IMG/VR virus record: IMGVR_UViG_3300005613_000086
Location: 1 to 52,009 of that record
Direction: 5' to 3' (one strand)
Source of the DNA: a virus
Length of the DNA: 52,009 nt
Part shown: one piece after another, positions 10,705-35,786 of the stretch
Layout: every line of letters starts with the position of its first letter
Numbering within the stretch: position 1 is the first letter of the stretch
Position numbers and translations under genes: made by a program
The notes under the pieces: model-generated
Database searches by the model: none
What the model was told of the DNA's origin: nothing
What the model saw: the letters and a program-made list of their open reading frames with translations, nothing else

Positions 10705-11088
10705 ATGGCAAAGACTAGATATATAAATATTGATTTTCCTTTTAAAGATAGTAGAAAGGGTTTTTACTTTCAATTAAATCAAACTGATCGAGATGCAATT
10801 AGGGCGGATTTATTACATTTATTATTAACTAATAAAGGTGATAGGTTATATTTACCTGATTTTGGTAGTGATTTAAGAAAATTCATATTTGAGCCTAATG
10901 ATACTATAACACACGATGAGATTAAAAAAAGTTTAAACGATAGTATAAGTAGATATATACCTAATTTAATAGTTAATAGTATTAATTTTAGGAACGATGA
11001 CATTGAAGAATTAATAATTGTAGAATTAACTTATACTGTGACAGATGGAACATTCCAAAGTTCTGATACAGTAACATTAACATTTTAA
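10705..11088 (+). CDS. gp25: gp25-like baseplate wedge protein
   Basis: The 127-aa protein has the GPW/gp25 fold signature: a central LLLTNKGDRLYLPDFGSDLRK segment (about residues 29-52), an amphipathic helix around DEIKKSLNDSI, and a final strand-rich part ending in DTVTLTF. In T4 and related contractile systems gp25 forms the baseplate wedge core and nucleates the sheath; the length agrees with T4 gp25 (132 aa). The gp6-like gene starts 3 bases downstream, the normal wedge pair, so this call is secure. Confidence 0.9.
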   Translation: MAKTRYINIDFPFKDSRKGFYFQLNQTDRDAIRADLLHLLLTNKGDRLYLPDFGSDLRKFIFEPNDTITHDEIKKSLNDSISRYIPNLIVNSINFRNDDIEELIIVELTYTVTDGTFQSSDTVTLTF

Positions 11089-11091
11089 AGT

Positions 11092-12921
11092 ATGGCTAAA
11101 AAGATAGATTATAATGCTAGGAATTTCTCAGATGTTAGACAACAACTTGTAGAGTTCATTAAAAAATATTATCCAGAAACGTTTTCAGATTTTAACGATG
11201 CATCTGTTGGTATGATGTTATTAGAATTAAACGCTGCGGTAGGTGATATGTTAAGTTTCCATACTGATAGAATGTTTAATGAAACTCAGATTAATTATGC
11301 GCAAGAAAGGTCATCATTATTAGAATTGGCTAGGACTTTTGGTTTAAATATTCCGGGTAAAAGACCTAGTATTACTTTAGTAGATTGGACAGTTACTAAT
11401 ATACCTGTAAAGGGTGATACTTTTGATGAAAGTTACGCACCTAAAATATTAAAAGGTTCACAAGCATCAGGGGCGGGTAAAATATTTGAGTTGTTAGAGG
11501 ATTGTGACTTTTCATCACCATTTGCAACAGGTGGGATACCTAATAGACTTATCATACCTAATATTGATGGTAATGGTATAATCCAAAGTTATTCACTTAC
11601 TAAAAGAGAGATAATGTTAAATGGGTTTACTAAAATTTATAAAAAGACTTTAGGGGCGTCTGATTTTAAACCATTTTTAGAGGTTATTTTACCTGAAGAT
11701 AATGTATTGTCTATTGAAAATATTATAACTAAAGAAGGTACAAATTTAACAACAACACCTACGGAAGAAGAATTTAGTAATTTCGACTTAAATTGGTATG
11801 AGGTACCTGCATTGGCACAAGGTGAAGTATATACAGTTGATGAAAATACGGTTTCTGACAATGAAGGTATTGTAGTGGGTAAATGGAAAAACGCACCACA
11901 AAGATTTATTAAAGAATATACTGATAATGGTTTCTGTAAAATAACTTTTGGTGCGGGAGATGAAGATATTTCAGAATTAAACGAATTTGTTGGTTGTAGA
12001 GGACAAATAGATAGAATTGGGAATATAGTTAACAACCTTTCTTTAGGTGAAATACCGTCACCAAACAATACATTATATGTGAGATATAGAGTTGGTGGTG
12101 GTGAGGATACTAATATTGGTCCAAATACTATTAATGGGTTAGGTGTTATTAGTTCTGTCGTTAATGGTGATGATGAAGATATAAATAGAGTTATAAGAAA
12201 TAGTATTAGTGTTAATAACCCAATACCAGCGTTAGGGGGGAAAGAAGAACCATCAATAGAAGAAATAAGAAATTTAGTAAAATATAATTTTTCCGCGCAA
12301 GAAAGATGTGTAACGATAAAAGATTATCAGAGTAGGGTACCTTTAATGCCTGGTAGATTTGGTGTACCATTTAGAACTGGTGTTTGGGAAGAAAGAAATA
12401 AAATCAATGTTTCTATTTTAGCGTTAGATGCAAATGGGAAACTTACAACACAATCTACGTCAACATTAAAACAAAATATTGCAGAATATTTGGCAGATTA
12501 TAGAATGATTAATGACTATGTGACTATTAAAAATGGTAAAGTATTTAATTTAGGTTTTGAAATAGATGTTTTTGCGGATAAGTCAGTACCTAAAGGAGAT
12601 GTGATTAGTGGTGTTATTAATAGTGTTAAAAATTATTTCGATATCAACAGGTGGGATATGGGGGACAATATCTATATTTCTCAGTTAGTTGAAAACATTA
12701 ATAATGTTGGTGGCGTATTAAATGTTACAGATTTGAGGGTATTTAACAAAGTTAATGAAAATGGTAAATATTCTTTAAATGAAGTTGCACAACCATACAT
12801 TGATGAGGAAACAAGACAAATTGATCTTTTAGGTAGATATACATTATTTGGTGAACCTAATGGTATGTTTGAAATAAAATACCCTAATAAAGATATTAAA
12901 GTAACAATTTCTACTTCATAA
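11092..12921 (+). CDS. gp6: gp6/J-like baseplate wedge protein
   Basis: The 609-aa protein starts with a helical region typical of gp6-type wedge proteins: FNDASVGMMLLELNAAVGDM (about 37-56), then LSFHTDRMFNETQINYAQ and a following ERSSLLELARTFG segment. A strand-rich middle and a baseplate-J-like C-terminal part follow (APALGG-like repeat EEIRNLVKYNFSAQERCVTIKDY near 400). In T4, gp6 dimers join neighbouring wedges into the baseplate ring; this protein is similar in length to T4 gp6 (660 aa). The start context TTTTAAAGTATGGC matches several other genes here. Confidence 0.88.
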   Translation: MAKKIDYNARNFSDVRQQLVEFIKKYYPETFSDFNDASVGMMLLELNAAVGDMLSFHTDRMFNETQINYAQERSSLLELARTFGLNIPGKRPSITLVDWTVTNIPVKGDTFDESYAPKILKGSQASGAGKIFELLEDCDFSSPFATGGIPNRLIIPNIDGNGIIQSYSLTKREIMLNGFTKIYKKTLGASDFKPFLEVILPEDNVLSIENIITKEGTNLTTTPTEEEFSNFDLNWYEVPALAQGEVYTVDENTVSDNEGIVVGKWKNAPQRFIKEYTDNGFCKITFGAGDEDISELNEFVGCRGQIDRIGNIVNNLSLGEIPSPNNTLYVRYRVGGGEDTNIGPNTINGLGVISSVVNGDDEDINRVIRNSISVNNPIPALGGKEEPSIEEIRNLVKYNFSAQERCVTIKDYQSRVPLMPGRFGVPFRTGVWEERNKINVSILALDANGKLTTQSTSTLKQNIAEYLADYRMINDYVTIKNGKVFNLGFEIDVFADKSVPKGDVISGVINSVKNYFDINRWDMGDNIYISQLVENINNVGGVLNVTDLRVFNKVNENGKYSLNEVAQPYIDEETRQIDLLGRYTLFGEPNGMFEIKYPNKDIKVTISTS

Positions 12922-22560: not shown

Positions 22561-25500
22561 ATGGCGAACAATAATAGAATAAAAATTGCAGGATACGCAA
22601 AAAGAATATTTTTCAATGACAACATTGAATATAGGAATTTCAGTCCTGATTTAGTAGGGTTCCAACTTACTAGTGAGGGGGGTACTACATTATTTACTAA
22701 TGGTAACTTTTCGATATCTGTTAATTTAGACCCAAAACCAAATGTCTTATTCACTCAGGGTACTAAATCTAAATTTTTTACTTTAGATGACATTAGTACA
22801 TCTGGTGACACACAATCAACCATTCAAAGTAATGTTAAGGCTAAACTTAACATAGACATTACAAATCCTTTGAGTTATATATGGTATGGATCTTCTAGTG
22901 AGATGATTAGAGCATCTTTAATAGATATACAGGAGAATTGGCCTGCCGCAATATACGTAGATAATAAAGTTGGTAGCGTTACAGGTAATAATATTACTGA
23001 CTATGTTTATGATATCTCTAGTGACGAATCAACATTTAAAGTTAATAGTAATTTCTTTAATAATCCATATGCAATAAAATATACTGAAGATTCTAAGTAT
23101 GTTGCGACAAATAGTGAAGAAAATCCTTTAAGGAATTTTACTTTAAAATATGGGTCATATGTTATAGAACACAATGGAATAGTAAAAAATATTAAAAGTA
23201 TAACACCGGCAACACAAAAAACTAATTCGGAGTTAACTTTGGTTGTAGATGGTAATCCATTTCCTGAACTTACTGGTATCTATATACCACAATATAGCTT
23301 TTTAAGTAACAATGTAGATGCTTCTATCCCTTATTTTATAAAACCTAATGAGTCTGAAATTGAGAAGTTCTTTAGTGGGTTAGATGATTTTCAGAGAACA
23401 ATACTAAATAGAGATATTACTCCAATATATAGGGCAGAGATTATTAGTAGTAATTATACTGATGATGGTGTATTATTAACTAGTAAAAAAGTATACGATT
23501 TCCCTTTAATGGATGATGGGTATAACCTTAATTTCTTCGACACCTTTTATATCGCTTATCTTAATAAATTGACGAAATTGGGTGAGGGATTAGATCAAAC
23601 AAATACTGACATCATATTTAGAAAATATACTACTGAAGCAATAAATAGTTTTGACACCTTACCAAAGGCAGATGGAGAAGATTTAACATTAAATGGTGAA
23701 AAGGCGACTAAATTGGTTAGGATATATGGTGTTGAATTTGATTATGTTAAAAAATATATTAATGGTATTAAGTTTGCACATGTTGTAACATATAATAAAA
23801 GAAATAATTTACCGGACGTTTTAGTGAAGGATCTAGCATTTATGTTAGGATTAGAACCGATTAATTTTATTAGTGACACATCATTTTCTAAACTATACTT
23901 ACCGAGTAATGGTGGTGGACAATTTAGTGGAACATCAACAAATCTTACAAAAGAACAAATTGATGTTGAGTTATACAGAAGATTGATTCTTAATATTGCT
24001 TGGTTATGGAAAAGTAAGGGTAGTAGGAAAGCGGTTGAGTTTTTATTTAGATTTATTGGTGCGCCTGAGTCATTAGTTAATTTTAATGAATATATTGTAG
24101 TTGTAGATAAACCATTAGACATCGAAGAAATAAAAAGGTTGTTATACATTTATACTGGTGAAGTTGATTTGTCTAATATACCTTATGATGATGATGGGTT
24201 CCCATTACCACCAGTTAATGGTGACTTAGTAATTAGTAACTTTATTGATCCCGAAACTGGAGAAGTTGTAGAGAATGGTATTACAGATATGTATTTCCAA
24301 AAAGCGGGTGGTTGGTATAGAGAAACTTATGGTAGTAATGTATTAACAGTATTAAATGGTAATAATCCACATGTTGGTCCTTATGATGGTGGTAGTGAAT
24401 ATCTACAATATTTTAGTAGATGTTATATACCTAATTTCGATAATGAACCTACCGTAGTTATAACTGCAGACACTATAAGACAAAATTATTTTGTAAATTA
24501 TAATTATGGTATTTTTAATGGTATTCCTACAGGAACGACATTCTATACTACACAATTAACATACAATAGTAATACAAATAATTACCAACCTATAGATAAT
24601 TGTTTGAATGTTAATTACTCTATTATTGAAACTCCGTTACAAAATGATGGAAAGACGACATTACAACAAGCATTTGCAGAGGCGGAAGCAGAATATAATG
24701 CATTTTTAGAGTTAATACAAAAAGATAGTTATTTAGTTTATTCTCCAGAATGGCAGATTATTAAAAATAATTATGAATTATCATTAAAAAATTGTTTAAA
24801 TGAAATCTCTACTGAAGATTGTGATACTAATAAAACTTTGGAGATTTGTTTAAATGGGGTAGAAGTAGAAACCACCCAATATAGTTGTGATAATCTTTCA
24901 TTAAAAGAGTGTTCTCCATTTTTATATTATGAAGATGAAAATGGGAATAAAGTTAGTTTCGATAAATTTCCACAATGTTGTGGAAATAATAATGGTAATT
25001 TTGTATCGTATGTTAATGAATATGGTAGACTTACGGAATATTGTACAACAAAGGCGCCTTGTGTTGGTAAACCTTTAGAACCATTAGAAAATGGTATAGT
25101 ACCATTTTTAATGACTGAGAATACAGTACCTGATAATATTTTTCAGTTATACGATAGATGTTACCAATATATTTATGAACAAACAATACCATTATCAGAA
25201 TTTGAGGTTGTGATTGGATACACTCCACAAGAAATTATTAACTCATTTTTATCGGGAGATTATCAGTTATCTATCTCTTTTGAAACATTATTTAGTTATG
25301 TTTCATGTGATATTACTTCGGTAGTGAGTAGTCCTGAGTGTTGTGCATATTATGGGATGAACTATACGATTGTAAATGATGGTCAAAAAGAATATATAGT
25401 ATGTTTGAAAAATAATTTGAATGGTTTAAGTGATGAACAAGTCCCTCAGTTTACTTTGCAAGATAGGTTAAGTTTGGGTAATTATACGATGCCGAATATT

Positions 25501-28500
25501 GATGAACAAATTAATACAACATATTATGATTTACAAAATCCAATAGGTAGTGTATATAATTATTATTCTACAAATATCTTTGGGGATTGTTTTAATGAAT
25601 CAATTTTAGTAAAAGAAGTTGTAAATACGAATAATAATATTATTGCAACCCCTAATTCTATTTTAGATGACCCTTCACTTATGAATCCTTCTAATTGGGA
25701 GGTTCATGCAATTGATGAGTATGGGAGAGTTAGTTTTGAACCTATTATTTATGATAATAATTTTATTATTGATTGGGATAGTACGGAGGAAGTTAGTAAT
25801 TTATATCAGTTAATTGCAGAATTCTACGATTATCAGTTTGGGTATTTTACTATTGATCAAAACAGTGGTAAATTAATAACATATAAAGGTGAAAATCCTT
25901 ATTCTAATAACCCTAATACTATATTTAGTGCGGCGGTTGACCCTAATAGGGTTGGATGTGATGATTTTAATAATGTTTCAGTTGTATTCGGAAGTGAGAA
26001 TTGGCAGGGTTTTAAATTACCTGAATTAGAAGATTGTAGTTGTACAATAGATTTCTCTTTTGATTATATGTTAAAATATGATGCCGGCAATTTGATTGAT
26101 TGTGCGAATAATATATCTTGTAATCCTGCAATTATACATGACAATACAATTAGTAATATTAATTGTTTAAATTTCGTTGCGTTTACAAATAGTATAGATG
26201 AGTCGCAAACATTACAAGGTAATTTTAACGATAGAGAGGATGTAACAGAAGAGTATATTATTTGGCAAAATACCAATGTGTTAGAACCAAATGTAGAATG
26301 TTGTAACGCACTGGGTGGAAATGTTGTGTCAGTAACACAATGGGCGTCTGTGAATCAAAATTGGGTTTCGCAGATAAACACAACTTATGGGGAATTATTT
26401 ATTAATCCTTCGCAAGATTTGTTAGCAACATTAAACTTTAATACGGGAGAGATATTACAGTTCATTGAAAAATATAAAAATATTAAGTCGAATGTGGAGA
26501 ATGAAATATCGGGTTGTTTTAATTTAACCCTACTATTCCCAACTTGTGACATACAATATAATAATTATATAACAACACAAAGTATATGTAATTTAGAAGT
26601 ACCATTAGAGTGTGGTATATGGTCTAAATTATTGACAGATTATAAGACATTAGAAAGTGCGATAATGAATGTTATCGGACAATATAATTCATTATGTGCG
26701 GAACCATTAAATGGTACTATTTCACAAATAGACGTTATTAAAACTTTTAATGGATTAACCACTCAAGAAATAACTGAATTAGAAAAATTAAAAAGTAGTG
26801 AAGATAAACTTAATGAACAAATCCTATTAATAGAAAATGATATTAGTAAAAAAAGTGGGGATAATATTATCATTGAAAAAGCAATTACTAATGTAGATAA
26901 CCCATTAGATTGCTCCGTTTATCAAAATAAAATAAATGAAATAAGAAACTTTGACTATAATTCGTATTGTAATAGTTTAATTTACGGTGATATTAACTCT
27001 AATGATGGTACTAAACAAAATGAATTTAATGTTTGTATATCGACAAAAACATTAGAAAATCAGAATGAAGAATTGGTATATTCTCAACTATTAGAAGATT
27101 GTTTTACTAAAAATAGATTAAATGAAGAACTAAATAACGCAAAATTTGATAATAATCAAACCTTAATTAGTGAAATTGAAAGTCAGCTATTAGATGTTAA
27201 TAATGACATCAATAGATTAACTACAGATTATAATAACACTATTAGTTACGATGAATCTAAGCAGTCGTCAATAATAGAAAATAATGATACGCAAAATACA
27301 ATTATTAAAACTGCGGAATTATTAAATACTAATACTGAAAATATTACTGACAATTCGGGTAATTTAGTTTTAAGTGATACACAAAAAATAGAACTAGACA
27401 TTATCTACAATAAAAATATATCACAAATAAGTGATTTATCGGTAGAACTTGAAGAAACAAATATTCTATTAAATCAAAACTTAATAGAACAAAATACGAT
27501 AATATCGGGTACTAAGATTGAACAAAATAATATTGGTAATACTGTATTAGAACCACTATCTGGTGGAACATTAGGTACTGGAGATGGTATATGTGATTTT
27601 ATTGACCCATCATTATTAACCTCTTCACTATCAGGTGCGTTATTATACAACGGTTTAAATATCCCATTAGAATGTTGTAATTCCAATGTAATTCAATTAG
27701 ATGGTACATTTACTTTTATTGGTAGAGAATGTTTTTATAGTAGTAAACAGGAGGAAATAAAAAATTGTTGTGATGTAATCGATACATTAGTAATTGAACA
27801 ATCACTAGAAGAACTACAACAAGAGATACCAACTATTGAACAAAAAACCCAAGAATGTTATGATAATTGGTACAGCAAATTGGTAGGGGATTATGAAGTT
27901 TATGAAGAAGAAAATAATAGTAATTTTGATTCATATTTAAATAAATTAAAAGTTAATTTTAAATTATTTGTTAATAATACAAATGATGATACTCAGACAA
28001 ATATAGACACAGGTTTAACTTATTTGCCATATACACAAGGGGTTAACCCAATATGGGAATGGGATCCTACTAATGGGTATACTGGAGTTATTTTAGAAGG
28101 TACAGAACAAGAGATTGCGGTAATTGAAGATGGTATATTTAATCACCTATCACAATTAAATGTACCATATAACTCAGAGATGTTTGAACCTGAGTGGCAA
28201 ACATTTAATTTTACGATACCAGAGTGTGTATGTGATGATTTACGAAGATTATATCCAAACAAAGAATTATTCTTCTCTATTGGTATAGAGAATTATGAAT
28301 GTTCATTGTGTTTATTGGTTGATAATATACAAGTTAATGTTTCTGATTGTCAAACAAATAGAATACTATCAATAAATGATTGTATGGTACCACAATTAAG
28401 TTGTGTTATAGACAATAAAAAATCTTGGGTTTATTATGATGGTGGGGTAGTTAAACAAACAATATACCCTAATGGTGATTGTAATACTGGTTCTACATCT

Positions 28501-30468
28501 AATTATGAAATAGTTAAATTAGGTGCGCAACAAGAAAGACTATGGTTAGATTTAGAATATAGATATACAGATTATGATGTTAACCATTCTGATTTAATAT
28601 TAAATGTTAAAAATGCAACTTTCAGTATTGATCCTGCGAAGGCAATAGAATGTGACGTATTTAATTATTGGAAAAATATTGATTGTAATAATTGTATAAA
28701 TAGTTGTACATCTGCAAATACAGTTATATTTAGTGGGCAAGTTTATAGTTCTACTACATTAGAAAATTATACTTTAGATTTATCGGCATCAACATCAGGA
28801 TTAACATTTAGTTGTTCTACGTTTACAGATTTATTAGAAAATCAAGTATTAGAATTGAAAAATAATTACTATACACTAACCTCGAATTATACTACATCAC
28901 TAAATGCGTCTTATTATGAATTATTAAATTTAGGTTCTTCACTAAGTAAATTTAGTATACAAAAAAATAATTGTGGTACTGATACTTTAATATTAAATAA
29001 TAATCGAGAAATTGATAATTTATTTGGGTTAATTACCGAAAATTATGATGGTACTATATCATTTTATGAATCTTATATTTACACAGGTAGTACACCATAT
29101 ACTGGTGGTACTTTGGTTGAAGTTTTAAGTGGTATAACTGCGCAAACATTCAACCAAACCCCATTTGTAAATTCTGGTTGTTGTAAAACAATTAATAATT
29201 TACTTAATAGTGAAGGTGTGGGCGGTTTAGATTTAGGTAAGAACTATCAATGGGATAGTAACATCAGCGCCTGTGTTTGGAAACCAATAAATGGTTGTTC
29301 TAATTGCAATGGGGATTGTGAATATTGTGGTACATTAAACGAGTGTTCTAATGGTTTTTATACGGGTACTTCTTATAATGTCTGTATTAATCCATTAGAT
29401 TATTTAGATATACAACCATCAGAGATTAATATTAAAGCAGTATTTGATCAATTAGTACAAACTAATTTAATTGACGTTAAGAGTAGACAAACAATTAGTG
29501 ATTATCCATTATTAAGGTTGTTCTATGAATTATACCTAAACGCAAGTAATTGTGGTAAAGACTTATCTGGTAAATATACATACGACACTATGTTTGAGTT
29601 TATGGATAAGATTGGTGACTATTGGTTAGACTTATTAGAACAAGTTGTACCTGCAACTACTATATGGGAAGGGTGTGATAATTCTGGAAAGATATATAGA
29701 AATACTATTTTTGATAACAATAAGTTTAACTATAAGAGATATAGTTTGAATTTCATAGATGTTGAAGTTGATTGTCCATTATCTGCACAAACAGACTTTA
29801 GTATTGGTTCTGAAACTAAACATTCATTAGTAGAACAAAAACCTATATATCCATCAAGTCCTGAAATAACACAACTTAAGACTAACATATTAAATAAAGA
29901 GTTGGAGATTGTCCTACTTAAGAAACAAATTTCTGTTGAACAAAGTAAGTTATGTGCAATAAGACTACAAGATTTAGACACACCAAACCTACAAGATTTA
30001 ATTGATTCACAACAAAGTCAAATTGATTTACTTAATAGTGAGTTAGATAAATTAAATCAACAATTAGTAGAATTAAATAATCAATTAGGTACATTAGAAA
30101 ATGAGTATTTACAACAACAACAAAATTATTATATGAACTTTATGAGTTGTAGTGGTATAACTCAAAACCTAATAAATGCACAAAATAATTTATCTGGATT
30201 TACACAAGGTACTACCGCATATGAAACACAAAGAAACTTTATTGCGGGACTTAGAGATAAATATAATAAGTGTGTTAGAAAGGCGAATACGTTAGTAAGT
30301 GATTATAATACAGTGTTTATAACACAAATATATGACAGTAATGAATATGAGGGTAATGTAGAGATATTTGGGGATCCTGATTTTGATATACCTAATTTCA
30401 CTAAAACATTACCACCAGAACAATTATCTGGATGGTATTATAATCAAGAATTGATACATAATTGTTAA
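22561..30468 (+). CDS. giant Cys-rich tail/baseplate protein, 2635 aa
   Basis: This is by far the largest gene in the window. Residues about 470-515 (LYRRLILNIAWLWKSKGSRK and onward) resemble a segment found in baseplate/tail proteins such as the tail protein I family. At least five Cys-Cys modules recur with the form E/Q/G-C-C followed by a Gly or Asp a few residues on: C806-C807, C927-C928, C1247-C1248, C1705-C1706 and C2207-C2208, each with a further Cys about 15-35 residues downstream. Two coiled-coil zones are visible, at about 1400-1650 and 2440-2535. It is likely a very long tail or fibre-type structural protein that meets the cell surface. The frame is intact throughout. Confidence 0.85.
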   Translation: MANNNRIKIAGYAKRIFFNDNIEYRNFSPDLVGFQLTSEGGTTLFTNGNFSISVNLDPKPNVLFTQGTKSKFFTLDDISTSGDTQSTIQSNVKAKLNIDITNPLSYIWYGSSSEMIRASLIDIQENWPAAIYVDNKVGSVTGNNITDYVYDISSDESTFKVNSNFFNNPYAIKYTEDSKYVATNSEENPLRNFTLKYGSYVIEHNGIVKNIKSITPATQKTNSELTLVVDGNPFPELTGIYIPQYSFLSNNVDASIPYFIKPNESEIEKFFSGLDDFQRTILNRDITPIYRAEIISSNYTDDGVLLTSKKVYDFPLMDDGYNLNFFDTFYIAYLNKLTKLGEGLDQTNTDIIFRKYTTEAINSFDTLPKADGEDLTLNGEKATKLVRIYGVEFDYVKKYINGIKFAHVVTYNKRNNLPDVLVKDLAFMLGLEPINFISDTSFSKLYLPSNGGGQFSGTSTNLTKEQIDVELYRRLILNIAWLWKSKGSRKAVEFLFRFIGAPESLVNFNEYIVVVDKPLDIEEIKRLLYIYTGEVDLSNIPYDDDGFPLPPVNGDLVISNFIDPETGEVVENGITDMYFQKAGGWYRETYGSNVLTVLNGNNPHVGPYDGGSEYLQYFSRCYIPNFDNEPTVVITADTIRQNYFVNYNYGIFNGIPTGTTFYTTQLTYNSNTNNYQPIDNCLNVNYSIIETPLQNDGKTTLQQAFAEAEAEYNAFLELIQKDSYLVYSPEWQIIKNNYELSLKNCLNEISTEDCDTNKTLEICLNGVEVETTQYSCDNLSLKECSPFLYYEDENGNKVSFDKFPQCCGNNNGNFVSYVNEYGRLTEYCTTKAPCVGKPLEPLENGIVPFLMTENTVPDNIFQLYDRCYQYIYEQTIPLSEFEVVIGYTPQEIINSFLSGDYQLSISFETLFSYVSCDITSVVSSPECCAYYGMNYTIVNDGQKEYIVCLKNNLNGLSDEQVPQFTLQDRLSLGNYTMPNIDEQINTTYYDLQNPIGSVYNYYSTNIFGDCFNESILVKEVVNTNNNIIATPNSILDDPSLMNPSNWEVHAIDEYGRVSFEPIIYDNNFIIDWDSTEEVSNLYQLIAEFYDYQFGYFTIDQNSGKLITYKGENPYSNNPNTIFSAAVDPNRVGCDDFNNVSVVFGSENWQGFKLPELEDCSCTIDFSFDYMLKYDAGNLIDCANNISCNPAIIHDNTISNINCLNFVAFTNSIDESQTLQGNFNDREDVTEEYIIWQNTNVLEPNVECCNALGGNVVSVTQWASVNQNWVSQINTTYGELFINPSQDLLATLNFNTGEILQFIEKYKNIKSNVENEISGCFNLTLLFPTCDIQYNNYITTQSICNLEVPLECGIWSKLLTDYKTLESAIMNVIGQYNSLCAEPLNGTISQIDVIKTFNGLTTQEITELEKLKSSEDKLNEQILLIENDISKKSGDNIIIEKAITNVDNPLDCSVYQNKINEIRNFDYNSYCNSLIYGDINSNDGTKQNEFNVCISTKTLENQNEELVYSQLLEDCFTKNRLNEELNNAKFDNNQTLISEIESQLLDVNNDINRLTTDYNNTISYDESKQSSIIENNDTQNTIIKTAELLNTNTENITDNSGNLVLSDTQKIELDIIYNKNISQISDLSVELEETNILLNQNLIEQNTIISGTKIEQNNIGNTVLEPLSGGTLGTGDGICDFIDPSLLTSSLSGALLYNGLNIPLECCNSNVIQLDGTFTFIGRECFYSSKQEEIKNCCDVIDTLVIEQSLEELQQEIPTIEQKTQECYDNWYSKLVGDYEVYEEENNSNFDSYLNKLKVNFKLFVNNTNDDTQTNIDTGLTYLPYTQGVNPIWEWDPTNGYTGVILEGTEQEIAVIEDGIFNHLSQLNVPYNSEMFEPEWQTFNFTIPECVCDDLRRLYPNKELFFSIGIENYECSLCLLVDNIQVNVSDCQTNRILSINDCMVPQLSCVIDNKKSWVYYDGGVVKQTIYPNGDCNTGSTSNYEIVKLGAQQERLWLDLEYRYTDYDVNHSDLILNVKNATFSIDPAKAIECDVFNYWKNIDCNNCINSCTSANTVIFSGQVYSSTTLENYTLDLSASTSGLTFSCSTFTDLLENQVLELKNNYYTLTSNYTTSLNASYYELLNLGSSLSKFSIQKNNCGTDTLILNNNREIDNLFGLITENYDGTISFYESYIYTGSTPYTGGTLVEVLSGITAQTFNQTPFVNSGCCKTINNLLNSEGVGGLDLGKNYQWDSNISACVWKPINGCSNCNGDCEYCGTLNECSNGFYTGTSYNVCINPLDYLDIQPSEINIKAVFDQLVQTNLIDVKSRQTISDYPLLRLFYELYLNASNCGKDLSGKYTYDTMFEFMDKIGDYWLDLLEQVVPATTIWEGCDNSGKIYRNTIFDNNKFNYKRYSLNFIDVEVDCPLSAQTDFSIGSETKHSLVEQKPIYPSSPEITQLKTNILNKELEIVLLKKQISVEQSKLCAIRLQDLDTPNLQDLIDSQQSQIDLLNSELDKLNQQLVELNNQLGTLENEYLQQQQNYYMNFMSCSGITQNLINAQNNLSGFTQGTTAYETQRNFIAGLRDKYNKCVRKANTLVSDYNTVFITQIYDSNEYEGNVEIFGDPDFDIPNFTKTLPPEQLSGWYYNQELIHNC

Positions 30469-30596: not shown

Positions 30597-33503
30597 ATGG
30601 CAGGAATTAGAGGTAAAATAGTAAATCCAATATCAATAGGAGGTGAAGTTATAACTGAAATTGAATCACCTATTAACTTAAATATAGGTACTGATATGAA
30701 TTATCAGGCATCCTCTATGTCTACATTTTTAAAAACAGAAAAATCATTATTCCTACCTACAGATTTATCTAAAATAGATGATATATTTTTAATATCTAAA
30801 CCTGATAAATACGGACAATCCATATTTAGAAATAGATTAACAGAAAAAACAATACCATTAAATTTTTCAGGTAACGTAAGTGACTCGAATTCTGAGATAG
30901 AAATTACTGAGAATAATGAAATACTTTATATAGATAATGGTAAAAAATATCAGTTACTTTCTAGTAGAAATGAAAGTAATAACTATGGTTGGGAACCTGT
31001 AAGTAATAGGGCGAAATATAATCATATAGAAAGATCGGACTTTGATAGTTTTGATTTCCCACAAGTTACGATAAGAGGTGTTAGAAAAATCCCTACCACT
31101 ACCGCAGATACTTTATGTGGTCCAGTAACATATACTGGTGAAACATATGATAGAATGAATTATAATTGGTTCTTTGGTAAAAATTCAGGGATTTCATTTA
31201 ACCCTATACAAAGTGGTGGAACGCCAGTTATATTAAGTGGGGCGATGGAATCACAAGAAGGTGTTGCCTCATTATCTAATAAAGAGGGGAAACTATTATT
31301 CTATACAAATGGTGAAACGGTTTATACTAGCGGAAACACAGTTATGTCTAATGGTACGGGTTTATCTAGTTCGGGAACCTCAACACAATCAGTTGTTATT
31401 GTCCCTAAACCTGAATCTGATAAGTATTATTTGTTTACTACAGATTATAACGGTAATCCTAATGGATTTGAATATTCTATAGTTAATATGGGATTACAAA
31501 ACGGAGATGGTGTAGTTGAAACAAAAAACATTAAACTTATTAATTCACCATTAACTGAAAAAGTAACTGCGTGTAGTAATACAACTGAAGACTCTTATTG
31601 GGTTATAACACATACAAGTGGTGATACATCATATTATACGTATAAATTATCTTCTACAGGATTAAGTGGACCGATAATCACAAATATCGGTTCTACACAC
31701 AATACTGCGAGAGGTTATATGAAGACATCGCCTGATTGTTCTAAATTAATATCTTTATTATATGATGAGGATATTATAGACATTTTTGATTTTGATTCCA
31801 CAGGTGGTACGTTAAGTAATTTTATATCATTAACGGGAATGACTTTTGATATTGGACCTTATGGGTTGGAGTTTTCTTCAGATTCTTCTAAGTTTTATGT
31901 TAGTGAAGGTGCAGGTGAAAAAGTATATCAATTGGATTTAACTTATACCTCTTCTACTGAAATGATAGACAATGTAATTGAGGTAGGTAACATTAGTGGG
32001 GCGAGTTTTGGGGCACTACAATTAGCACCTGATGAGAGAATCTATCTTGCAGATTATAACAATACTAATTTACATATTATACATAGACCGAATGGTTTGG
32101 GTGTACAATGTAATTTTGAAAGTGATGGTTTATCTTTAACTAATAGTGGTATCACCGGTACATCTTCATATTGGGGATTACCTAATGTTATAACGGACAA
32201 ATCTATTTCTTGTGATAGATCAGTTTATATTATACCTAAAAGTAGGACAGGATACTTATTTGACGTTTTAGTGAATAATGTTAATAACGTAGTTGAACCT
32301 AAAAAACTTTCATTATTTGGTGAGGTTTATAGATACGAACAAAGTATTGGTGAATTTACTAAATCCGCATTATCTAATTTTGTTATAGATTATAAAGATT
32401 TAACTGCTAATACAAGTAATAACATTTATATACCTACATTAAATATAGGTGAGGGTGAATTTTTAATAAAATCTTACTGGACTTATAATGTAAACACGTT
32501 ATTGGCGAAGAAACAAAAAGTCACAAAAAATACTATTAATACATATAAAAGAGGTGAATTATATGGTTTATATGTTCCCGAAACGGATTGGTATTTTATA
32601 TCTTTGTTTGAATCACAAAAACCACTATTTAATAGTTCTACCGCACCTCAACCTCAAGACATAGGTAATTTAGTAGTACAAAGTAGGTTTACTGAAAGTG
32701 GTACTACTGAGTACGTAGTAAATGGTTTATCTGACCCAATAGTCTCATATAATGGTTCTGTATTGGCTAAGAATATTGAATATAGTGCAGTTACCTCTGC
32801 AACTACACCATATATTAAATTATTATTTAATCCATTACCTAATCAAGTTTTAACATATGCATATATTAATAATGGAGGTAGTGACGATTTATTGGCGGAT
32901 TTATATACGATATCTACAACAATAAAAAGTGGCTCAACTAGTACACAATCCTCTACAGATAGAGTATTTTATAATACCACACAAAATAAATATGAATTTT
33001 ATTTGACTAGTGTCCCTAATAGTGATGTTGTTTTATCTTTAAATGGGACAATATTAAGTAAAGATATTGAATATTACTTATCTTTATCTGATAGTAGAAG
33101 AATTATATTTGAAGATGATTTAGTTGTTGGCGATATAATAGAAGCGTTTTATGTTCCTACTGCCGCGATAAATGGGTTAGTACCTAATAATACGCCTACA
33201 ATTAGCTGGTCTATCAACGATGCACCAACACAAACATTTGGTAGGTTTACAATAGAAGTGACTGATCCTACTGATGAATTTTTTGAATCAATAGAATATA
33301 GTTTTGTTGTTGACTATATTATAGGACAAAAAACATATAGTGATACTATAACATTGACAAATGCAGTCGCAGGTGATAAATTTATATATAGGGTTAAAAA
33401 TGAAAAATTTTATACCCCTATTATTGGTGAAACTATTTATAGTGTAAACTATAGTGATGTAAATAATATAGAAATACAATTTAATAGTGGGCAATCATAT
33501 TAA
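30597..33503 (+). CDS. tail/fibre protein with an embedded Bacteroidota-type beta-propeller, 968 aa
   Basis: Residues 1-185 look like a phage attachment part. Residues about 189-530 match a beta-propeller typical of flavobacterial gliding/T9SS proteins: YNWFFGKNSGISFNP, GKLLFYTNGETVY, VMSNGTGL-STQSVVIVPKP, YGLEFSSDSSKFYVSE, GALQLAPDERIYLADYN and WGLPNVI occur in the canonical order. Two copies of a fibre-like module follow, at about 712-760 (SYNGSVLAKNIEY) and 810-855 (SLNGTILSKDIEY). There is no signal peptide and no T9SS sorting tail. It is probably a virion surface protein whose propeller was taken from a host gene and may bind a surface receptor. Confidence 0.8.
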   Translation: MAGIRGKIVNPISIGGEVITEIESPINLNIGTDMNYQASSMSTFLKTEKSLFLPTDLSKIDDIFLISKPDKYGQSIFRNRLTEKTIPLNFSGNVSDSNSEIEITENNEILYIDNGKKYQLLSSRNESNNYGWEPVSNRAKYNHIERSDFDSFDFPQVTIRGVRKIPTTTADTLCGPVTYTGETYDRMNYNWFFGKNSGISFNPIQSGGTPVILSGAMESQEGVASLSNKEGKLLFYTNGETVYTSGNTVMSNGTGLSSSGTSTQSVVIVPKPESDKYYLFTTDYNGNPNGFEYSIVNMGLQNGDGVVETKNIKLINSPLTEKVTACSNTTEDSYWVITHTSGDTSYYTYKLSSTGLSGPIITNIGSTHNTARGYMKTSPDCSKLISLLYDEDIIDIFDFDSTGGTLSNFISLTGMTFDIGPYGLEFSSDSSKFYVSEGAGEKVYQLDLTYTSSTEMIDNVIEVGNISGASFGALQLAPDERIYLADYNNTNLHIIHRPNGLGVQCNFESDGLSLTNSGITGTSSYWGLPNVITDKSISCDRSVYIIPKSRTGYLFDVLVNNVNNVVEPKKLSLFGEVYRYEQSIGEFTKSALSNFVIDYKDLTANTSNNIYIPTLNIGEGEFLIKSYWTYNVNTLLAKKQKVTKNTINTYKRGELYGLYVPETDWYFISLFESQKPLFNSSTAPQPQDIGNLVVQSRFTESGTTEYVVNGLSDPIVSYNGSVLAKNIEYSAVTSATTPYIKLLFNPLPNQVLTYAYINNGGSDDLLADLYTISTTIKSGSTSTQSSTDRVFYNTTQNKYEFYLTSVPNSDVVLSLNGTILSKDIEYYLSLSDSRRIIFEDDLVVGDIIEAFYVPTAAINGLVPNNTPTISWSINDAPTQTFGRFTIEVTDPTDEFFESIEYSFVVDYIIGQKTYSDTITLTNAVAGDKFIYRVKNEKFYTPIIGETIYSVNYSDVNNIEIQFNSGQSY

Positions 33504-33545: not shown

Positions 33546-35786
33546 ATGAGTTACATTAATAAACAAGATACTACCTTAGTAAGAGTTAAACTAACTGATA
33601 TTGGTAGAGAACAATTAGCAAAAGGACAATTAACCTTTACTAATTATATGATTGGAGATTCAGAAGTCGACTATAATTATGTTAAAGGATGGAGTGAATT
33701 TGTACCCAATGAAGGTGCAGCGACAGGACAATTTTGGTTTCCTGAAGCGGATGGTAATATAGATAAAAATATATTTTCAAAAGTACTAAGACCAAAAGAC
33801 GACAACCCATTTTTTTCTTCATTCCTTTTAAACCAAAGTAACCAATTCATATTTCCTCTAAACCAACAAAGTAATATACAATTAATAAAAGGTATAGTTA
33901 CTAATGAGGCAGATGATAGAGGATTCTTTTCTGGATCCACAGTAGACACAGGATTGATACCACAAACAGGAACAGATTTCATTAAAGAAACTGGTACAAT
34001 AGATTTAGTTAATTTTGATGGAGTTATAGATGTTACTACTTTCACACAAGGTGTGTTATCTGGTATTACGTTAACTAACACAGAAGTTAATGATTATATT
34101 ATATTTAGATTTACAAACCCAACATTAGGTAGTCAAACTGGATCAACAATGACTGCGGCGACAATAAATACTACATATAATATTACATCTATTAGTGGTT
34201 CTACAATTAAAGTAGATAGAGTTTTACCAACATTAAACGCATATTCAGGAACAATTATTACATATTATACTTTACCTGGTGGTGATAACCCTACAGATGA
34301 TTACTATGGGACTAATTCATTGGCTGCGTATTGGAATACTGGTACATTATCATTTGATAGTAGTTGTGATATATGTAATGAAAATATCCCAGTGTGGAAT
34401 ATGAATAATGTGTGGACAGAAAACCCCGCGGGACTTTACAAAGATTCTCCCGTTAATTATCACGAACATAATTTATTCGGTTCAGAACAATTCACAGGTT
34501 CTAAACAATATTTAGGTTATAATGAAAATTTAGTTTGTAACACAAATGATGCGACATCAATATGTGGTACCGATCAACCTATAAGTTATATTGATCCTTA
34601 TAAGAAATCAATATCTATCTTACATTATTCTAATAGTTGTATATCTAATTTCTACGGAGAACAATTTTATATCGATGAGGAAACAGGTAAATTATTGAAT
34701 TTAGATATTCCTGTTATGTGGCACAGAAGAAATGATGTTGGTACTGCGAGTGGTACTACATTAGGTATGAGATTTACTTCAGATACAATTAAGAAAACAT
34801 TGTCATCTAATAATGATGTTGAGTATTATGATTTAATTGAATATAGTGGTATGTCGGTAACTCCGACAATGCCATTAGTAGTTGGTAAAATATTCCCACA
34901 ATTAAAAATTGTTGTTATTGATAATGAGGAGTTAGTTGCTGCGATGTCATATAAATCGAATAGAAACTATACACTACCTGACTTATCTGCAGAATTAGTT
35001 ACATCAGTTAATGGTAATTGTACTGGAGTGTTAAAGGCGGGTGAAACATTGTTTATGACTTATTGGTTAGAAAATGTTGGTACAGGATCGACAGGTACGA
35101 CAACAGTGACTACACCTACACTACCTTGTCAGAGACATACTGTTATCGACAACAAAACAAGTTCTGATAAAGATGTTCAGTTTAGAATTAGTAACGTAGA
35201 TCATTTACCATATATGAGAAAAAGGGAAGATTCTGGATATGATGGTTATGGTTTCTTTGCGGATTCATTTAAAGTTCTAGCACAAGTAATAAATAGAGAT
35301 ACACAAAATAGACCTTCTCCATCGGGATGGAAGGTTGTTGACTTTACATCTACAAACATCACAGGAAATAGTGGTGAAACAATTAACCCACTATTACTAC
35401 AGAACCAAAATCCAAACACAACAGGATTTATTTTAACAGGTTCTTTATATACTGGTGGTACACAATTTAATTTAGGTGAAGAATTAGATATGTCAACCGC
35501 ACAATATTATGGTAAGATGACTTTTGGAGATGAAAGATTATTCTATGGTAATTTAAGAACACATATCGCGGCGACAATATATAAATCACTATTTAATATT
35601 AACATAGATGGTGCAACAATTGCATCTAGTAGTAATACTACATATGACTTTGGTTTAGATAGATATGTTAGTGAGATAGGTGTGTTAGATAATAACAATA
35701 ATTTAGTATTGGTTGGTAAGTTGTCTAGACCTATTAGATTGGCAGATTCTACTACCGCATCAATAGAATTAACAATAGACTTTTAA
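33546..35786 (+). CDS. tail-fibre-like protein, 746 aa, paralogue of the next gene
   Basis: The N-terminus (VRVKLTDIGREQLAKGQLTF-TNYMIGDSEVDYN) resembles the phage tail-collar fibre N-terminal domain, which attaches fibres to the baseplate. The C-terminus (YVSEIGVLDNNNNLVLVGKL) matches the corresponding end of the following gene, so the two are paralogues that differ by an inserted, Thr/Asn-rich middle region of about 300 residues. Fibre proteins of this type recognise host surface structures. The gene has its own candidate promoter, and an SD-like AGAGGAA lies just before the ATG, unusual in this window. Confidence 0.8.
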   Translation: MSYINKQDTTLVRVKLTDIGREQLAKGQLTFTNYMIGDSEVDYNYVKGWSEFVPNEGAATGQFWFPEADGNIDKNIFSKVLRPKDDNPFFSSFLLNQSNQFIFPLNQQSNIQLIKGIVTNEADDRGFFSGSTVDTGLIPQTGTDFIKETGTIDLVNFDGVIDVTTFTQGVLSGITLTNTEVNDYIIFRFTNPTLGSQTGSTMTAATINTTYNITSISGSTIKVDRVLPTLNAYSGTIITYYTLPGGDNPTDDYYGTNSLAAYWNTGTLSFDSSCDICNENIPVWNMNNVWTENPAGLYKDSPVNYHEHNLFGSEQFTGSKQYLGYNENLVCNTNDATSICGTDQPISYIDPYKKSISILHYSNSCISNFYGEQFYIDEETGKLLNLDIPVMWHRRNDVGTASGTTLGMRFTSDTIKKTLSSNNDVEYYDLIEYSGMSVTPTMPLVVGKIFPQLKIVVIDNEELVAAMSYKSNRNYTLPDLSAELVTSVNGNCTGVLKAGETLFMTYWLENVGTGSTGTTTVTTPTLPCQRHTVIDNKTSSDKDVQFRISNVDHLPYMRKREDSGYDGYGFFADSFKVLAQVINRDTQNRPSPSGWKVVDFTSTNITGNSGETINPLLLQNQNPNTTGFILTGSLYTGGTQFNLGEELDMSTAQYYGKMTFGDERLFYGNLRTHIAATIYKSLFNINIDGATIASSSNTTYDFGLDRYVSEIGVLDNNNNLVLVGKLSRPIRLADSTTASIELTIDF

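Follow-up and report, generated by a model that had tools for sequence, protein, structure and literature searches.

A beta-propeller of Bacteroidota T9SS surface-protein type in a modular slot of a T4-like phage tail-cluster protein

The window analysed here, that is, the whole 52,009-nucleotide stretch of the virus record IMGVR_UViG_3300005613_000086, encodes a tail-cluster protein of 968 amino acids (30597-33503, on the plus strand, as are the other window genes and protein parts given with coordinates below), which carries an internal beta-propeller of the type found in Bacteroidota surface proteins that are exported by type IX secretion (T9SS). The propeller (residues 189-530; 31161-32186) occupies a modular slot in this protein. 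It was most likely acquired by the phage, and probably serves as a module for adhesion, displayed by the virion.

Fold and bacterial relatives of the propeller

The interval 31161-32185, singled out in an earlier sequence-only reading as a host-type propeller embedded in a phage tail protein, lies in frame with the 968-aa open reading frame and corresponds to residues 189-530, in which all of the propeller segments quoted in that reading are present. AlphaFold2, run on an alignment of 82 rows, gives a pLDDT of approximately 90 across residues 190-530, and the model has six four-stranded blades and possibly a seventh, completed by strands from the N-terminal side. The modelled structure, searched with Foldseek, and the HMM of the family, searched against PDB profiles, both match the YVTN surface-layer propeller 1l0q and propellers of the lactonase type, with the YVTN propeller outscoring the lactonases in the profile search. 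The domain is thus a confidently predicted beta-propeller, as the earlier reading had anticipated.

The homology to the N-terminal domain of T9SS-secreted Bacteroidota surface proteins is far above chance and spans the whole domain of approximately 340 residues. When the propeller was searched against plasmids (tblastn), four Hymenobacteraceae genes were recovered at E values of 5e-22 to 4e-13, covering 89-99% of the query, together with a fifth at E 0.02, and most of these matches are annotated as, or split from, proteins with a “gliding motility-associated C-terminal domain”. A single profile scan across the genomes of bacteria and archaea recovered 213 relatives, and the E values in searches of individual genomes fall as low as 5e-68. 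The identity of the phage propeller to its bacterial relatives is mostly 34-45%. By their titles, all of the 79 loci listed belong to the Bacteroidota, Chlorobiota, Ignavibacteria, or Kapaibacteria, except for one phage contig (QCKH01000004.1, 83,794 bases), which is filed as a Prochlorococcus single-cell genome. This contig holds the phage tail module, at 53% identity, and is probably a Bacteroidota phage that was co-sorted with the cell or is a contaminant. In the Flavobacteriaceae, 182 of 300 genomes have the propeller at E values up to 1e-10, with a best identity of 45%.

The bacterial propeller mostly starts some 24-40 residues into the protein, after an apparent signal peptide, and is followed by PKD or Ig domains and a CHU_C or Por_Secre_tail domain. 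It is a very common N-terminal domain among the surface proteins of the Bacteroidota, and the full-length homology, together with the fold, places the phage propeller in this family of T9SS cargo. The two kinds of protein share the same domain from end to end, with 69 of the 93 positions that are conserved in the bacterial family being kept in the phages. The phage protein differs in having no signal peptide, PKD repeats, or sorting signal, and in the fusion of its propeller into a tail-cluster protein. The sequence-only reading had linked the propeller to flavobacterial surface proteins of the gliding and T9SS systems. The relationship to T9SS cargo stands, but the link to the gliding apparatus over-reads the annotation, because “gliding motility-associated” names the C-terminal sorting domain and not the propeller. 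In the bacteria, the part of the protein related to gliding and T9SS is the separate CHU_C or Por_Secre_tail domain, which the phage protein lacks, and many relatives are devoid of the “gliding motility-associated” domain, as in Hymenobacter, where the propeller is a stand-alone protein of approximately 362 residues.

The tail gene cluster and its modular slot

The window is a fragment of a T4-like phage, probably one of the Bacteroidota. Matches to PHROGs include the T4-like myovirus markers gp25 (baseplate wedge; 10705-11088; PHROG 261/43, E 3e-20), gp6 (baseplate wedge; 11092-12921; PHROG 10646/219, E 2e-20), UvsX, a DnaB/gp41-like helicase, and an SbcC-like gp46, in addition to a weak gp32-like match (E 3e-4). 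The GC content is 29.5%. Shine-Dalgarno motifs are present at only one of the 34 gene starts, which are A-rich, and several starts have the promoter-like pattern TTTG-N19-TATATTTG immediately upstream, this pattern being observed seven times against an expectation of 2.9, and equalled in three of 100 shuffles. A-rich starts without Shine-Dalgarno motifs, together with a TTTG-type promoter, are the pattern typical of the Bacteroidota, and a Bacteroidota host is therefore likely.

The 968-aa reading frame sits in a cluster of large genes downstream of gp25 and gp6, in an order that is kept in the sister phages, and a position of this kind, in a tail or baseplate cluster, is one that a receptor-binding protein or adhesin would be expected to have. 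It is flanked upstream by a cysteine-rich protein of 2635 residues (22561-30468) and downstream by a protein of 746 residues (33546-35786), which is syntenic in all of the groups and approximately 40% identical in the sisters that lack the propeller. The 2635-aa protein contains 71 cysteines, none of them in its first 600 residues, varies more than any other neighbour that was aligned, and is often broken into several reading frames in the relatives. It is a candidate for the main adhesin or host-range protein.

No useful family was recovered for the 968-aa protein by searches of Pfam, PHROGs, and NCBIfam, or by single-sequence searches of the PDB. Its sole Pfam match at E values up to 1 was an insignificant one to DUF6799, neither CHU_C nor Por_Secre_tail, the C-terminal sorting domains of T9SS, appeared at the same threshold, and a match to a virion RNA polymerase (E 0.13) was dismissed as chance. 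Inspection revealed no signal peptide ahead of the propeller, the N-terminus being MAGIRGKIVNPIS and the propeller beginning only at residue 189. Residues 1-132 (30597-30992) are found, by their N-terminal profile, only in the propeller-bearing phages, and are modelled at low confidence (pLDDT 30-50). The C-terminal part (residues 531-968; 32187-33500), which is common to phages with and without the propeller, is predicted to form a chain of Ig/FnIII-like beta-sandwiches (AlphaFold2 pLDDT 80, and Foldseek); some sister rows of the structure alignment made over the full length have their first residues misplaced into propeller columns, which affects few residues. This part, considered as a candidate T4 gp10-like baseplate protein, has no sequence match in the PDB; Foldseek matches it to a 607-aa baseplate chain of the Klebsiella phage KP1 at E 1.2e-4, with a TM of only 0.15, and unrelated beta-sandwich chains reach similar scores.

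The same fusion was found in 29 viral contigs, with propeller identities of 57-96% and neighbouring genes that are identical in kind in those contigs that were examined, which rules out an artefact or a misassembled host gene. The isolated phages (50,697 phage records) provided no convincing match. A further 43 loci, from sister phages, contain the C-terminal part at 31-38% identity, with no propeller, and are followed by the same downstream order as in the window (the 746-aa protein, a 431-aa protein, a RuvC-like protein, and a primase). This conservation, with synteny, in phages that lack the propeller marks the C-terminal part as phage-type, in agreement with the sequence-only reading, which had described phage-type flanks around the domain.

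Most of the sister proteins have 473-491 residues, with a short N-terminus that ends in the conserved motif NVNMSSDICVF..PLF..SGASKIDC and leads directly into the C-terminal part. In the other sisters, approximately 150, 270, or 430 additional residues, unrelated to the propeller, follow directly after this motif. Two near-identical phages (L136 and L139), with flanking DNA of 90% and 85% identity, are separated at this site by one insert of approximately 1.24 kb. Since the sisters have either nothing or unrelated inserts at the same place, and these two phages differ by a single insert, the propeller occupies a modular slot. In the tree of the C-terminal part, the propeller-bearing phages lie on one side of a branch with a support of 100, and ten changes of slot content are needed across the tree. 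A comparison of profiles places the sister motif at residues 133-168 of the window protein (the YNHIERSDFDSFDFPQVTIRGVRKIPT region; 30993-31100), shortly upstream of the propeller, and these residues may be its counterpart, a correspondence that is only suggestive because the match (E 7.7e-4) has a probability of only 25%.

The inserts of four sister proteins (L131, L135, L136, and L167) contain CxCPxGY motifs and have a lectin- or PA14-like look (WDxNGSxxxGRLNN...EWIGFxxCI), with no match in Pfam. The insert of approximately 430 residues found no match in 150 Flavobacteriaceae genomes, a search by one query that says little. The length of the propeller itself hardly varies among nearly all members of its group; the protein at L198:7473-11129 has approximately 230 additional residues within it, near the last blade.

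Conservation and origin of the propeller

The propeller is better conserved than the rest of the protein, with a mean pairwise identity of 68%, against 51% for the N-terminal and 55% for the C-terminal part, and it ranks first in 98 of 105 pairs, which are not independent of one another. It is under purifying selection, with a dN/dS of 0.08-0.16 in the pairs computed, and the family-conserved residues kept by the phages include E221, Q264, K310, N311, E321, K322, and H339. A diversified binding tip, as expected of a receptor-binding protein, was therefore not observed, and such a high level of conservation would be unusual for a receptor-binding tip. Together with the retained residues, it points to a conserved function or ligand and argues against a specificity tip that diversifies quickly. 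More variation than in the propeller is seen in the 2635-aa neighbour, which is more likely than the propeller protein to be the determinant of host range. Unlike the sequence of the propeller, the content of the slot varies between clades.

The phage propellers group in a single clade (SH-aLRT 99-100) within a far deeper bacterial diversity. The trees are unrooted and derive from quick searches, with SH-aLRT support only, and are insufficient by themselves to give the direction of transfer, but the breadth of the bacterial family, the native T9SS architecture, and the existence of sisters that lack the propeller indicate that a Bacteroidota host was its most likely source, and the ancestor of this T4-like clade its recipient. 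The absence of the domain from the sisters could be due to loss. An ancestral domain of T4-like phages without host relatives, which would have been the undoing of the earlier reading, is ruled out by the sisters that lack the propeller and by its abundance in the bacteria.

Possible roles and other viral propellers

Under the preferred reading, the ancestor of the T4-like clade would have acquired the propeller of a type IX-secreted Bacteroidota surface protein, and this domain would now fill the slot that separates the short N-terminal region from the conserved beta-sandwich C-terminal part in a tail protein associated with the baseplate or a fibre. Exposed on the virion, it may bind a host-cell partner that is itself conserved, either a glycan or a surface protein, which is perhaps the ligand of the bacterial propellers. 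This binding would aid the first or the second step of adsorption, and the strain range would be set by neighbours that evolve faster, the 2635-aa protein among them. Receptor binding by the propeller is plausible. The adhesion role is supported further by the position of the window cluster after gp25 and gp6 and, in another viral contig, by the overlap between a propeller gene and a collagen-like tail-fibre gene. It is possible, if tentatively so, that the propeller has kept its original specificity, with the virion and the bacterial protein competing for one conserved ligand, and that Bacteroidota phages have taken up the family more than once, in the tail slot, in a secreted propeller-PKD gene, and in a gene adjacent to a fibre gene. 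A search of open-licence papers found no ligand for any member of the T9SS propeller family.

The conservation of the propeller would also fit a structural role, in which it serves as a spacer or assembly module of the baseplate or fibre, through bracing, symmetry, or contact with the 746-aa or 2635-aa protein, without binding the cell. Purifying selection of the kind seen in structural tail parts, and the nearly fixed length of the domain, speak for this role, which nevertheless appears doubtful, given that sisters which share the C-terminal part and the neighbouring genes manage without the propeller, that assembly does not need a filled slot in the two phages that differ by another insert, and that polar residues conserved across the bacterial family have been retained. 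Binding or mimicry of the gliding or T9SS machinery, by which the propeller would attach the virion to mobile adhesins of the cell surface or compete with T9SS cargo, is quite unlikely. The bacterial relatives are indeed T9SS cargo, two of them near PorP/SprF genes, and in Flavobacterium columnare the phage receptors are considered likely components of the gliding machinery, a proposal also made for F. johnsoniae (PMC7345892). Type B cargo, however, contacts the machinery through a C-terminal domain that is bound to PorP-like proteins (PMC9143113). The phage protein lacks this domain, and many of the bacterial relatives either have type A signals or stand alone.

An enzymatic role, as a lactonase-like module that cleaves or modifies a surface polymer, is highly improbable. 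The nearest solved folds include propellers of the 6-phosphogluconolactonase type, and one bacterial relative (L068) lies barely above the Pfam cut-off for lactonases, but the better score of the YVTN propeller, the lack of any catalytic residues identified in the domain, and the generic nature of propellers as a scaffold all weigh against it. The decoy function entertained in the sequence-only reading is also unlikely, because the propeller is fused into a conserved protein of the tail cluster, and this protein lacks a signal peptide.

Host-type domains in the tails of Bacteroidota phages, propellers in receptor-binding proteins, and contractile systems with swappable domains are already known. 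The receptor-binding protein of the Staphylococcus phage phi11, for example, contains a beta-propeller, and resembles the window protein in this respect, although it comes from a phage of another host phylum, is not of the T9SS type, and has no sequence match to the window propeller. The phi11 protein serves in host recognition (PMC4901313). The BACON domains of crAss-like phage tail proteins, which have spread horizontally and are proposed to bind the host (PMC6949934), are likewise Bacteroidota-type domains in tail-associated proteins, but they are small Ig-like carbohydrate-binding repeats, tandem and recombining, whereas the window has one large, conserved, single-copy propeller in a T4-like phage. 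The fibres of extracellular contractile injection systems (eCIS) combine a conserved baseplate anchor with exchangeable, horizontally acquired binding domains, including beta-propellers (PMC12923769). The design is similar, but the anchors are different, and in the window protein the slot is internal, with the conserved C-terminal part behind it. The open-licence literature searched contained no case of a T9SS-type propeller placed in the tail slot of a T4-like phage. The propeller in the tail protein is likely to represent a new type of attachment module among uncultured phages of the Bacteroidota, and the series of sisters with an empty slot, the propeller, or other inserts provides a natural experiment on domain swapping in tail proteins. 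As it keeps the family-conserved residues, the phage propeller could serve as a compact soluble probe for the ligand of the T9SS propellers.

Other viral contigs also carry members of the family. A second phage lineage (L205-L219 and L221; for example, L209:7923-9299 and L221:7935-9332) encodes a predicted secreted protein with a signal-peptide-like N-terminus, the propeller, and mostly a PKD domain, without a T9SS sorting domain, and this protein may act in the periplasm or at the surface, as a decoy or in exclusion. In L221 the gene is surrounded by genes for DNA polymerase and helicase, and in L209 it is near a gene for a head-protease-like protein. Joining the two main viral propeller lineages costs 20 log-likelihood units (AU p 0.129), so that a single viral origin is disfavoured, at a p value that does not reject it. 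A divergent propeller gene without a signal peptide (L226:7968-9500) overlaps the end of the collagen-like tail-fibre gene (L226:6385-7986), and is possibly a third phage acquisition. Five further viral contigs (L227-L231), of 34-89 kb, contain open-ended reading frames of approximately 3000 residues, each with two weak matches to the propeller family.
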